Below, one piece after another: positions 21,611 through 25,818 of a DNA stretch of 64,000 nucleotides. A model generated the notes under the pieces. It saw only the letters and a list, made by a program, of their open reading frames with translations. It made no database searches and was not told where the DNA came from. Position 1 is the stretch's first letter. Every line of letters begins with the position of its first letter. The DNA lies in assembly GCA_903863885.1 (NCBI GenBank), contig CAIPEB010000020.1, positions 1 through 64,000 on the forward strand, written 5' to 3'. The stretch comes from an uncultured Planctomycetaceae bacterium. Its GTDB lineage: Bacteria > Planctomycetota > Planctomycetia > Pirellulales > Pirellulaceae. The position numbers and the translations under genes are program-made.

Positions 21611-22600
21611 CTATGCACGGTCGATCGGAAAAGGCATGACTTCGTGAATGTACCGGGAACCGATTAGGGCCATGAGCAGTCGATCGAAGCCGAGGGCGAC
21701 GCCCGCGCATCGCGGCAGCCCGTGGCGCATTGCGTCGAGCAACCGGCTCTCCTCGGGCAGGCAATACTTGCCGCAGGCAGCCCGCTGGGCGTTGGCTTCG
21801 CGGTTCCGCTTTTCCAACAACTGCGAGTCGAGCAATTCGTGGTAGCCGTTGGCCAATTCAACGCCGCGGTAATACAACTCAAACCGTTCGGCCACTGGCG
21901 GGTCGTCTTCGCGCACGCGGGCCAGCGCGGCCTGGCTCGCCGGATAGTCGAAGAGGATCAGCGGGCGCTGCGTGCCGAGTTGCGGCTCCACAAGCTCAGC
22001 AAGCAGAAGATTCAACCACTCGTCGCGCGACGAGTCGGCCATGCTCCGCGGCACATCGATTCCACTTGCGAGAGCTGCTCGACGCAGCTCGCCGGCGGAT
22101 GCCCGATGGGGATCGACACCCACGTGCCGGACAAACGCTTCGCGGTAGGTGCATTGATCGACGGCCGGCACATCCAACATCTCGCAGGCCAGTTCGCCGA
22201 GAAGCTCCATGCCCTCGCGCAGGCCGTCGCCTACACGATACCACTCGACCATGGTGAACTCAGGGTTGTGCCGATCCCCTTGTTCCCCGCCGCGAAAAGC
22301 GTGCGTGATCTGGTAGATCCGCTCGGCTCCGGCGGCCAGCAGACGCTTCATCGCGAACTCGGGTGACGTCTGCAGCCATAGCGTCTGCCCGACATCCGGT
22401 TGAGTCGGATCGGAAAAGACCGTGACACGCAGCGGATCGATGTTCAGATCAACCACCGCGTCGTGCGAAAGCAGCGGCGTGTCCACCTCAATGAACCCGC
22501 GGTCGTCGAAGAACGAACGCAGGCGTTTGCGCAGCGCATGGCGCAGCGCAAGCACCGACAGGGCTGCCGTCGGCTGAAAATCGGCGGGGTCTTTGTCCAC
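21611..22600 (-). CDS. epmA: EF-P (R)-beta-lysine ligase
   Basis: A 329-residue class II lysyl-tRNA-synthetase paralogue without an anticodon-binding domain, which attaches (R)-beta-lysine to EF-P. Motif 2 (HNPEFTMVEWYR) and motif 3 (GVALGFDRLLMAL) are present, and the length fits E. coli EpmA. The start is GTG at 22600, sharing one base with the efp stop (TAGTG), which implies translational coupling. The much longer in-frame extension lies inside efp in another frame and is not real. It sits directly downstream of its substrate gene, efp. Confidence 0.94.
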   Translation of the reverse strand: MDKDPADFQPTAALSVLALRHALRKRLRSFFDDRGFIEVDTPLLSHDAVVDLNIDPLRVTVFSDPTQPDVGQTLWLQTSPEFAMKRLLAAGAERIYQITHAFRGGEQGDRHNPEFTMVEWYRVGDGLREGMELLGELACEMLDVPAVDQCTYREAFVRHVGVDPHRASAGELRRAALASGIDVPRSMADSSRDEWLNLLLAELVEPQLGTQRPLILFDYPASQAALARVREDDPPVAERFELYYRGVELANGYHELLDSQLLEKRNREANAQRAACGKYCLPEESRLLDAMRHGLPRCAGVALGFDRLLMALIGSRYIHEVMPFPIDRA

Positions 22601-23169
22601 TAGTTGCTTACGCGTTCGACATAAGCGCCGGTACGCGTGTCGATCTTGATGACGTTTCCTTCCTTGAGGAACGCCGGGCCCAAGAACTCTGCACCCGTCT
22701 CGACCTTCACGGACTTGGTCACATTCGTAGCCGTATCGCCCTTGGCTCCGGGCTCGCATTCCACCACCTTCAACTCGACATGGTTGGGCGGTGACATGAT
22801 GATCGGCTGACCGTTGTAGAGAACCATCGAGCATGGCAGGCCTTCCTTAAGATACTTCCAGGAGTCGCCAACCTGCTCGGCACTCAATTCGTACTGATCG
22901 TACGTCGCGTTGTCCATGAAAACGAACGTGTCGCCCTGCCGGTAGAGATACTGCGAAGCGATTTCCTCGACATCGGCCGATTCGAGCGAGTCGCCCCCTT
23001 TGTAGGTGCGATCGAGCACGGTCCCGCGGATCAGGTTCCGCAGCTTGCATTTGTAAAGAGCGTTGCCTTTGCCGGGTTTGACGAAGTTCATTTCAATCAT
23101 CAAATACGGCTCGCCCTCGATCTGAACCTTCAGGCCTTTGCGAAAGTCACTTGTCTTGTATGTGCCCAC
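22600..23169 (-). CDS. efp: Translation elongation factor P
   Basis: A 189-residue EF-P that relieves ribosome stalling at polyproline stretches. The loop KPGKGNA has Lys at position 34, exactly the residue that EpmA/EpmB modify in E. coli. The N-terminal KOW-like domain (MGTYKTSDFRKGLKVQIEGEP) and two OB domains follow; the end GNVIKIDTRTGAYVERV is canonical. It is followed without a gap by epmA, and epmB is divergent 208 bp away. Confidence 0.97.
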   Translation of the reverse strand: MGTYKTSDFRKGLKVQIEGEPYLMIEMNFVKPGKGNALYKCKLRNLIRGTVLDRTYKGGDSLESADVEEIASQYLYRQGDTFVFMDNATYDQYELSAEQVGDSWKYLKEGLPCSMVLYNGQPIIMSPPNHVELKVVECEPGAKGDTATNVTKSVKVETGAEFLGPAFLKEGNVIKIDTRTGAYVERVSN

Positions 23170-23377
23170 GTCAAGTTCCCTACTACGCTTCCCAACCCAT
23201 GACCATTATGCTACCCGACAGAGTCATTGTTCGACTCTGCTGACTGTTCCAATCCGGTCTGCGGTCTGTGCCTGCCAATTCGCTGGCCGGCTATCGTCCC
23301 CAGTCGTTTTTTGGACTTCCCCGCACACTCCGAGGCCCGACCGTACCTGTTACCCGGCAGCACGATCGTCGCAACCG

Positions 23378-24397
23378 ATGGCAATTGTAACTTCTTCCTC
23401 AGATTCTGTCCGCGCCGCTCTGCCTCGCTGGCAGGATGCGGTCCGGACCGCCATCCGCGACGCTGCTGAACTCTGCGATCGCCTGCATCTGCCCGTCGCC
23501 CTCAGGGAGGCGGCGGTCGAAGCCGGTCGTTCGTTTCGGCTGTTTGTCCCGCAGGCATTTGTCGCCAAAATGCGGCTCGGCGACCCGGCCGACCCCCTAC
23601 TCCGGCAGGTCTTGCCGCTGCCCGACGAACTGGCGGACGTAGCGGGCTACACCCGGGACCCCGTGGGAGACCGGCAGGCCTCGACTGCTCCAGGCTTGCT
23701 GCAGAAATATAGCGGGCGGGCCCTTCTTGTCACAACGGGGGCTTGCGCCGTCCACTGCCGCTACTGCTTTCGACGGCACTTTCCGTATTCGGAGGCTCCG
23801 CATTCGCTGGCCCAATGGCAGCCCGCGCTGGACCAGATCGCCAGCGATCCCACAGTCCACGAAGTCATCCTGAGCGGCGGTGATCCTCTGATGCTGACCG
23901 ATGCCCAGCTGGCTCAACTGGCCGAACAAATTGCCGCCATCCCCAGCGTCCGTCGCCTGCGAATCCACACGCGTCTGCCCGTTATGATCCCCGAACGGGT
24001 CACGCCGGATCTGGTTCGAATGTTGCGGGATTCTCGGCTCACCCCGCTGGTCGTCGTGCATGCCAACCACCCGCGCGAACTGGATCGCGACGTGGCCGAT
24101 GCGATCGCCGCGCTGATTCAAGGCGGCATCCCCGTGCTGAACCAGTCCGTGCTGCTGCGCGGAATCAACGACGATCTGGCAACGCTCGTCGAATTGTCGG
24201 AACGACTGATCGATCTCCGCGTGATGCCTTATTACCTGCACCAGATGGACCGAGTTGCCGGCGCGGCCCACATGACAGTGCCCGAATCAACAGGCCGCGA
24301 ACTTGTGGCTCAGATGCGCCGTCACCTGCCCGGATTTGCCGTCCCTCTGTACGTTCGCGAAGAACCGTCGGCGCCCCACAAACTGCCGTTGGGATGA
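23378..24397 (+). CDS. epmB: EF-P lysine 2,3-aminomutase-type radical SAM enzyme
   Basis: A 339-residue radical SAM, PLP-dependent enzyme that converts lysine to beta-lysine for EF-P. The cluster motif is C123-x3-C127-x2-C130 in GACAVHCRYCFRRHFPY. SGGDPLMLTD, RLRIHTRLPVMIPER, LNQSVLLRGINDD and VMPYYLHQMD match E. coli EpmB closely. The start at 23378 gives MAIVTS, similar to the MAHIVTL of E. coli; upstream codons back to 23138 lack family similarity. It is short and lacks the C-terminal tetramer region of catabolic lysine aminomutases. Divergent from efp-epmA. Confidence 0.93.
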   Translation: MAIVTSSSDSVRAALPRWQDAVRTAIRDAAELCDRLHLPVALREAAVEAGRSFRLFVPQAFVAKMRLGDPADPLLRQVLPLPDELADVAGYTRDPVGDRQASTAPGLLQKYSGRALLVTTGACAVHCRYCFRRHFPYSEAPHSLAQWQPALDQIASDPTVHEVILSGGDPLMLTDAQLAQLAEQIAAIPSVRRLRIHTRLPVMIPERVTPDLVRMLRDSRLTPLVVVHANHPRELDRDVADAIAALIQGGIPVLNQSVLLRGINDDLATLVELSERLIDLRVMPYYLHQMDRVAGAAHMTVPESTGRELVAQMRRHLPGFAVPLYVREEPSAPHKLPLG

Positions 24398-24398
24398 G

Positions 24399-24471
24399 GG
24401 AGTCGGGAGTCTGGAGTCTGGAGTCTGGAGCAACACAAAACCGGCATCTGGTATCCGGCATCCGGTATCCC
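24399..24471. repeat. Two heptamer repeats side by side (GGAGTCT and CYGGYAT)
   Basis: GGAGTCG and three GGAGTCT units run from 24399 to 24426. After a short gap come four units of the left-edge heptamer at 24441-24468 (CCGGCAT, CTGGTAT, CCGGCAT, CCGGTAT). Both units have the form GGNNTCY when read in register. They fill the convergent gap between epmB and the SenB-like gene. Short GGAGTC(T/C) pieces recur at 27642-27661 and 59433-59453. Confidence 0.85.
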
Positions 24472-24485
24472 GTCGGCCAGCCCCG

Positions 24486-25457
24486 TCAGGTCGAGCCGCA
24501 GGCTTCCCAGAGAAACTCACCGAGCAGGTTATCCCAGTCGCGTCTTTCGCGGGCGGGATCGACCAGTTTGGCCCGCTCGCGGCAATGGTCGCACAACGAC
24601 TGATAGAAGATCGGCTCCGTCTCGGCCCGCACCAGCAACTCAGCCAGCGCGCCAGTGTCGCCGACGGGAAAGTATCCGGGATAATCCGCCCCCAACATTC
24701 CCACGTTGCCCGAGATGCGGGAGGCCAGGACCGGGACGTCCGCCGCGAGAGCTTCCGAAACCGCGTTCGCTCCGCCTTCGATCCGCGAACTCATGACAAG
24801 CAGGCGTGATCGGGCGAGCCGCTGCTGCGTGCGACCGCGCGACATTTCGCCCAGCCACTGGTACCGCGGATTGACCTTCATCTCCCGCTGAGCACGCGTC
24901 TGCCAAGTCGGTTCCATTGCCATGCCGAGGTGCACAACGCGAATCCGGGATGAGGCGGGCAGGCGGCGAGCAGCCATTGCTGCACGAAGCGGGTCTTTTT
25001 CCGCACGCAGATGCCCGATGACGCAAACCTCGAAGCACTGCTTCAATGGATCGGGCCGGCGAGCGGGGGGGACGGCCGACTGATAAATCACGCGCGACTT
25101 GTGGGCCAGGCGTCGGGGGAGGCGCGCCAATCCGTCCAACTGCAACAATAGCAGCCGAGATGCGAACTCCAGCGAAGCTCGCGCCGAACGACTCCTCTCG
25201 AGATCCCGATACAGGTCCGTTCCTGTCAGCACAACGATCATCGGCGATGCCGGATGCTGATGCCTGTATCGGCGTATGACTGCCGCGTTGCGACGTGCAT
25301 GCAGCACGACCAGCACATCACATGGCTCGTTGGTGTACTCGGATTGCACTTCGACCTTGTGCCCAAGTTCCTTGAGCATGCGACGCCAGCGGAACGCCGT
25401 AACGTTGTTGCCGCTGTGGCGACTCGGGCGCGGAGGCGTGATGATCAGGACGTGCAT
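24486..25457 (-). CDS. SenB-type glycosyltransferase (TIGR04348 family)
   Basis: A 323-residue GT-B-like glycosyltransferase. By memory of the family it matches the TIGR04348 group, members of which include the selenosugar synthase SenB of selenoneine biosynthesis. Characteristic stretches are LTGTDLYRDL (77-86), FEVCVIGHLRAEKDP (142-156), ASSRIRVVHLG (168-178) and SSRIEGGANAVSEALA (223-238), then YPGYFPVGDTGALAELL. The ATG at 25457 gives the family start MHVLIITPPRPS; the extension to 25739 is unrelated. SenA- and SenC-like genes are not adjacent, so selenoneine production cannot be concluded, and a sulfur or other sugar-transfer role is possible. Confidence 0.75.
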   Translation of the reverse strand: MHVLIITPPRPSRHSGNNVTAFRWRRMLKELGHKVEVQSEYTNEPCDVLVVLHARRNAAVIRRYRHQHPASPMIVVLTGTDLYRDLERSRSARASLEFASRLLLLQLDGLARLPRRLAHKSRVIYQSAVPPARRPDPLKQCFEVCVIGHLRAEKDPLRAAMAARRLPASSRIRVVHLGMAMEPTWQTRAQREMKVNPRYQWLGEMSRGRTQQRLARSRLLVMSSRIEGGANAVSEALAADVPVLASRISGNVGMLGADYPGYFPVGDTGALAELLVRAETEPIFYQSLCDHCRERAKLVDPARERRDWDNLLGEFLWEACGST

Positions 25458-25818
25458 GTCGAGTGCTAGCAACTCAGAGTATTCACGCGACGCAGAGTCG
25501 TCCTGCGTTACACCTGCAATGCAACCGGGATTTCGGGTGATCGGGACACATTCCAGATTATCCAAGCTCACGCGTTTCGATGCCAGACAAGTTTTGAGGC
25601 TATCGGTCTTCGTAAGCGCCGGCGAGTCTAACGTCGCGGATCGACCGGTGTGGACTTTGGTAGGGAAGATGCCGATGAATCCGAAAGCACCACTTGTGTC
25701 GGCGATTTCACGCTTGCCGTCCGGGCTGCGTCGCACCATTGAGCCGACTCAGCTCGCGCGTGCATCGTGCAAACCAGCACCGGCGCACCCCTTCACTCCT
25801 TGAAAACGAGAGCGTTCC
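25458..25818. other. Divergent intergenic region, 361 bp
   Basis: No gene, clear promoter or repeat was recognised. It must contain the start signals of the SenB-like gene (minus) and the exported protein gene at 25819 (plus). Confidence 0.5.

Follow-up and report, generated by a model that had tools for sequence, protein, structure and literature searches.

A SenB-type selenosugar synthase without SenA in a planctomycete: a candidate selenium pathway outside selenoneine synthesis

The window analysed here is a stretch of 64,000 nucleotides from contig CAIPEB010000020.1 of an uncultured Planctomycetaceae bacterium. On its minus strand, at 24486..25457, it carries an ATG-started open frame of 323 residues plus stop (MHVLIITPPRPSRHSGNN), which we predict to be a senB-like gene encoding a Se-glycosyltransferase (selenosugar synthase) of the GT-B fold. 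An earlier note on this DNA, made from the letters alone, had called the product a SenB-type glycosyltransferase, and profile, phylogeny, fold and active-site residues all uphold that identity. The TIGR04348 profile, titled "selenoneine biosynthesis selenosugar synthase SenB", matches the protein at 406.5 bits (E 6.1e-122; cut-off 300) over profile positions 1-308 of 310, and the second-best family model reaches 103.8 bits, far below its cut-off of 400. An alternative upstream in-frame start at 25739 would give a longer form; the TIGR04348 match starts at residue 3 of the shorter one. Across the genome TIGR04348 gives 17 matches, of which the window gene is the sole one above cut-off and the runner-up scores 58 bits. 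A phmmer search of solved structures returned solely SenB entries at E <= 0.001 (PDB SenB, E 7.7e-58). In a careful tree, 22 SenB rows, the characterised Variovorax SenB included, split from seven GT4 paralogues that the window genome itself encodes, with support 100/100, and the window protein lies inside the SenB side, which is recovered in 100% of 200 bootstrap trees, the tool flagging the long paralogue branches. The window gene is a genuine member of the SenB family, and the case for its enzyme identity is strong.

The predicted structure (predicted local distance difference test, pLDDT, 94.8) superposes on the SenB structure 8jjn with Z 40.5 and a root-mean-square deviation of 2.1 over 314 residues, at 38% identity. 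The top non-SenB fold matches are BshA and sucrose-phosphate synthase, at Z of about 30; BshA identity was rejected, TIGR03999 scoring 23.7 bits against a cut-off of 273.7. The residues important in Variovorax SenB, taken from the 2024 structural paper (PMC10891094), are all retained: N20, T23, H58, R61, T83, T85, D86, Q131, R155, K158, E231 and E239 align with N17, T20, H53, R56, T78, T80, D81, Q126, R151, K154, E227 and E235 of the window protein. The residues for binding the uridine diphosphate (UDP) sugar are thus in place, and neither of the outcomes that the earlier note had named as telling against it, a position outside SenB or the loss of such residues, was seen. Computed from the start at 25457, the N17 codon lies at 25407..25409 (minus strand) and corresponds to N20 of the Variovorax pocket for sugar donor and selenophosphate; the K154 codon, at 24996..24998 (minus strand) in the block GHLRAEKDP, corresponds to K158, the putative Se-P cleavage residue (both roles from PMC10891094). 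The E227 codon, at 24777..24779 (minus strand), opens the motif EGGANA and aligns with E231, which contacts the sugar C-2. The equivalents of K158 and E231 are identical across 100 of 100 aligned rows, and both are also invariant in another alignment. Two pocket neighbours differ between the proteins, V157 of Variovorax being E153 here and H235 being N231.

In known clusters SenB works with SenA and SenC, and the earlier note had stated that neither partner adjoins the gene. This is correct: neither SenA nor SelD lies beside the window senB, and senA, senB and senC are not clustered. Its further suggestion, that SenB may act with distant partners, holds for SelD in the role of SenC and is not supported for SenA. 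The genome-wide search found one selenophosphate synthetase SelD above cut-off (TIGR00476, 352 bits; G000:C664:39741-40667), which fills the SenC role on a separate contig, unlinked to senB; selenophosphate can therefore be made. This SelD carries a TGA at its active-site motif, reading SCAGUAGK as in the selenocysteine type of the enzyme, and so apparently contains selenocysteine there itself. The genome also has a SelA match on contig C11 (E 3.8e-164). The tRNA 2-selenouridine synthase SelU was not found in it and so offers no candidate partner, and 29 kb of sequence near SelA or SelD gave no Rfam match to a selenocysteine tRNA. For SenA, the model NF041186 gave nothing in the genome at E <= 1e-20 with 17 of 43 first-look candidates scored, a threshold that EgtB-like proteins of relatives clear easily. 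The EgtB-related signature TIGR04373, which scores 88-95 bits in three SenAs scanned, gave nothing at E <= 1e-3, scores having been computed for 150 of 155 candidates; it was abandoned as a stand-in for SenA in favour of NF041186, having matched in no control genome. EgtD (TIGR03438) gave nothing at E <= 1e-20, both candidates being scored. EgtD makes hercynine, the substrate of SenA. Since neither SenA nor the supplier of its substrate was found, selenoneine is an unlikely product of this organism.

The organism could nonetheless make selenoneine if SenA, together with EgtD, lay in an assembly gap or had diverged beyond detection. The genome is a draft of 789 contigs (96.26% complete) and its SenA candidates were partly scored, which leaves some room for this; it would, however, require two separate genes to have been missed together, and the relatives tell the same story. 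In a sample of 98 related genomes, the window genome among them, SenB was called at E <= 1e-40 in 19 (18 above cut-off), and SenA exceeded its cut-off in 0 of 98, all 19 SenB carriers included. EgtD exceeded its cut-off in 5 of the 19 SenB genomes vs 24 of the 79 others, showing no association. Nor is the SenA model at fault in this phylum. A sample of 392 planctomycete genomes, which shares some members with the relatives, the window genome among them, was called for SenB at E <= 1e-60 and for SenA at E <= 1e-112; it yielded SenB in 56 (36 above cut-off) and SenA in 33 (31 above cut-off), with both in 28, which leaves 28 of the 56 SenB genomes without SenA. We regard a hidden SenA as highly improbable. 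SenB without SenA is recurrent and is not an artefact of one broken genome. That SenA can be unlinked from SenB is seen in G122, where the two lie about 80 kb apart, so a whole-genome check is needed before SenA is called absent. The converse state also occurs: G197, G257, G284, G301 and G348 have SenA (L255-L259) without detected SenB, and the fetched flanks of these SenA genes contain no SenB-like gene, the one in G257 sitting on a contig of 3.4 kb.

Outside the circle of close relatives the usual arrangement differs, as a comparison of named SenB loci from many phyla shows (the best 80 of 592 confirmed). SenA lies upstream of SenB within the fetched flank of 8 kb in 59 of the 80 (58 by strong tblastn matches, plus L146, whose SenA is truncated at the contig end), and 21 have no SenA in the flank; for L098, one of these, the sequence upstream of SenB is just 400 bases long. 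Planctomycete or phycisphaeral records account for nine of the 21. In four of the 80 (L095, L102, L114 and L153), all of them among the 21, SelD directly adjoins SenB. The supposed SenA neighbour of L090 was dropped as a different, shorter protein (tblastn 80.9 bits), and L144 additionally holds a separate EgtB. The SenBs of G025, from the same family as the window genome, and of L092 are at zero distance in the tree. A quick tree places the window gene in a planctomycete SenA-less group of 21 rows with no SenA-linked row, at a weak support of 74; a quick tree of 145 rows places it in a group of 17, 16 of them SenA-less and one a SenA-linked myxococcal row, at support 90. With monophyly weakly supported in this way, a single origin of the planctomycete solo SenBs is not claimed. 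On the starred branches of the 145-row tree there are at least 8 changes between SenA-linked and SenA-less states, so that SenA loss or independence occurred repeatedly. A comparison of 100 rows found no specificity-changing residue in the solo SenBs: end columns aside, their majority residue departs from that of the SenA-linked ones only in a K for R61 and at two hydrophobic sites, where the change is conservative. The two pocket differences from Variovorax also occur among SenA-linked SenBs, with E at the V157 position in 18 of 59 and N at the H235 position in 57 of 59; the latter is the family norm and was dropped as a distinguishing feature.

It is also conceivable that the window senB is a non-functional remnant of a past sen cluster, in keeping with its isolation and with its patchy occurrence among the relatives. 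Against this, its frame is intact and its active site conserved, and the ratio of non-synonymous to synonymous change (pN/pS) ranges from 0.13 to 0.38 across ten pairs of SenBs for which no SenA was detected, as compared with 0.17 in two SenA-linked pairs; the ten include L098, whose state is unsure, and the window gene, for want of a close relative in the set, is in none. These values indicate purifying selection on several pairs, and therefore that SenA-less SenBs are kept. We hold the remnant explanation to be very doubtful.

The presence of SenB goes together with that of SelD. Among the relatives SelD occurs in 18 of 19 SenB genomes vs 36 of 79 without SenB (Fisher p 6e-5), and within the family of the window genome in 13 of 14 vs 23 of 46 (p 0.0045). 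In the phylum sample the counts are 53 of 56 vs 193 of 336 (p 8e-9), and SenA-less SenB genomes, taken alone, have SelD in 26 of 28 vs 188 of 331 genomes with neither gene (p 8e-5). Some individual genomes deserve mention. SelU is found in 4 of the 98 relatives (G011, G045, G048 and G054), all of them SenB genomes (p 0.001), and their SenBs (L028, L029, L025 and L026) form a divergent subgroup with EGAPSV or EGGPSV replacing EGGANV. G080, a SenB-positive relative, has four SelD copies, each with an in-frame TGA. G084 has SenB and two SelD copies and no SelA or SelU at E <= 1e-30 in a fragmented genome, 92% complete; if this is real, SenB would be the sole known user of SelD there.

We suggest, with a probability of roughly 0.6, that the window gene encodes a Se-glycosyltransferase acting outside selenoneine synthesis, SelD and SenB together making a 1-selenosugar, which would either serve in that form or go on to a further step. 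An inverting attack followed by lysine-promoted Se-P cleavage is the mechanism published for Variovorax SenB (PMC10891094). We infer the substrates, product and fate of the window SenB along the same lines. SelD, encoded on the other contig, would turn selenide and ATP into selenophosphate; the N-terminal domain of SenB would bind this selenophosphate, and the C-terminal domain a UDP-sugar, by analogy probably UDP-N-acetylglucosamine (UDP-GlcNAc). Selenium would attack C-1 of the sugar with inversion, and K154 would help water to cut the Se-P bond, leaving a 1-seleno-beta-sugar that bears its selenol free. With neither SenA nor EgtD, the source of hercynine, found in the genome, two fates come into question. 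The pathway may end with the selenosugar, as a small selenol for buffering redox state, for storing selenium or for detoxification; or a further enzyme, encoded elsewhere, may take it as substrate. Most simply, the cell would use or store the selenosugar itself.

Several observations weigh against this proposal. The Fisher tests linking SenB and SelD are not corrected for phylogeny. SelA is likewise commoner with SenB (18 of 19 vs 48 of 79 relatives), and within SelA-positive genomes alone the SelD contrast is marginal (17 of 18 with SenB vs 33 of 48 without, p 0.05), so part of the link may merely reflect selenium use in general. SenB occurs without detected SelD in one relative, G005 (91% complete, SelA present), and in G127, G358 and G481 of the phylum sample. 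The draft state of the window genome and the partial scoring of its SenA and TIGR04373 candidates, given above, belong here as well. Finally, no neighbour family is common to more than 3 of the SenB loci of 18 relatives, and no specific partner gene stands beside SenB in 66 loci without SenA, where the two widest clusters after SenB itself look like antisense senB frames and one family recurs in 9 loci. There is also a block of shared neighbours, mainly confined to family f37, which we read as ordinary synteny.

The SenB genomes that lack a detected SelD raise another possibility, namely that the acceptor has shifted and the enzyme makes a thiosugar or other glycoside, selenium no longer being used. 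Such a shift is possible in principle: Variovorax SenB discriminates only 10-20-fold against thiophosphate (PMC10702425). On the other hand the published pocket residues are retained, and SenB is rare where SelD is lacking, at 1 of 44 such relatives and 3 of 146 such genomes in the phylum sample. The earlier note had likewise allowed for sugar transfer to another thiol or selenol compound. The SelD of the window genome and the unaltered pocket favour selenophosphate as the acceptor, and we give the shifted acceptor little credence. A further alternative keeps the selenosugar and hands it to an enzyme that stands in for SenA, being unrelated to it and encoded at an unlinked site, and yields a different selenium metabolite such as a seleno-analogue of a glycosylated thiol. 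Purifying selection on SenA-less SenBs and the occurrence of that state in several lineages mean that the product is probably useful; partners can be unlinked, as in G122; and the nearest non-SenB folds include BshA and MshA. BshA opens bacillithiol synthesis and MshA mycothiol synthesis. The comparison of neighbours, which could reveal linked genes only, produced no candidate for such an enzyme at the loci of the relatives or in the 66 SenA-less loci, and we consider this alternative unlikely, leaving a SelD-SenB selenosugar, used as such or passed on, as the reading that we prefer.

In the window, senB is flanked by genes for translation and housekeeping, encoding EF-P, EpmA, EpmB and a sigma factor, and by one for a 3-keto-disaccharide hydrolase, which is predicted to act on sugars. 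EF-P, EpmA and EpmB are grouped together at 21611-24397. The mechanical EpmA frame of 407 residues shares 235 bases with the EF-P gene, and the real EpmA start therefore probably lies inside that frame, in the region of residue 84-97 at which the family models set in. The genes epmB and senB converge, and the stretch that separates them holds short tandem arrays at 24399-24470, one of the 7-base unit GGAGTCT in 4.6 copies and one of the 14-base unit CCGGCATCCGGTAT in 2.1 copies.

Six of the 124 SenB genes checked contain an internal stop, in every case TGA and never TAA or TAG: L248 (G450), L243 (G362), L116, L111, L094 and L232 (G251), all otherwise intact. In G450, G362 and L116 the TGA lies in the inter-domain linker, 3-4 residues past a conserved QS, and RNA folding places a hairpin whose loop is rich in G about 20 nucleotides downstream of it, similar to a selenocysteine insertion sequence (SECIS); qualifying hairpins are present in 31% of the 124 genes, among which these three rank 1, 3 and 21. 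In L111 the TGA replaces the cysteine of FEVC, a pair of the Cys/Sec type, with no hairpin support; 70 of the 124 genes encode cysteine at that position, which is C145 in the window protein. For L094 and G251, an error or a pseudogene seems the likelier reading. From these sequence features, selenocysteine in some SenBs is possible but unproven.

More broadly, and at somewhat less than even odds in our estimation, these genes may mark a SenA-independent selenium trait, found in many planctomycetes and scattered among Poribacteria, Rubrobacter and Hydrogenophilales-type bacteria. The selenium-specific pathway would then consist of nothing but SelD and SenB, with a 1-selenosugar, or a derivative other than selenoneine, as a small-molecule selenol in its own right, and in a few lineages SenB may itself be a selenoprotein. 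The enzyme is a further member of a known family; what varies is its setting, in which SenB and SelD are present and SenA and EgtD were not found. The titles and abstract openings of the literature searched contain no description of a SenA-less SenB, and we make no claim of priority, the founding 2022 paper on the sen cluster being outside that coverage. Selenoneine synthesis is described as the first bacterial route dedicated to a small molecule of selenium, and those who discovered it anticipate more (PMC10702425; PMC9814287). We note that genomes with SelD and SenB and without SenA and EgtD are direct places to search for the next selenometabolite.

Set beside known systems, the window protein shares family, fold and catalytic and pocket residues with the SenB of Variovorax paradoxus (PDB 8JJN, 8JJQ, 8JJT, 8FBX and 8RZ3) and with RsSenB (8K5U). 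It departs from the Variovorax enzyme in having N231 for H235 and E153 for V157, and in a context where neither SenA nor SelD is adjacent and SenA was not found in the genome. BshA and MshA share its GT-B fold (Z 30.4 to BaBshA, 3mbo; 29.3 to MshA, 3c4q), although identity to them is about 16%. With the SenA-SenB-SenC cluster for selenoneine the window genome has in common SenB and a selenophosphate synthetase; it differs from that cluster in that SenA and EgtD were not found and in that senB and selD are unlinked.
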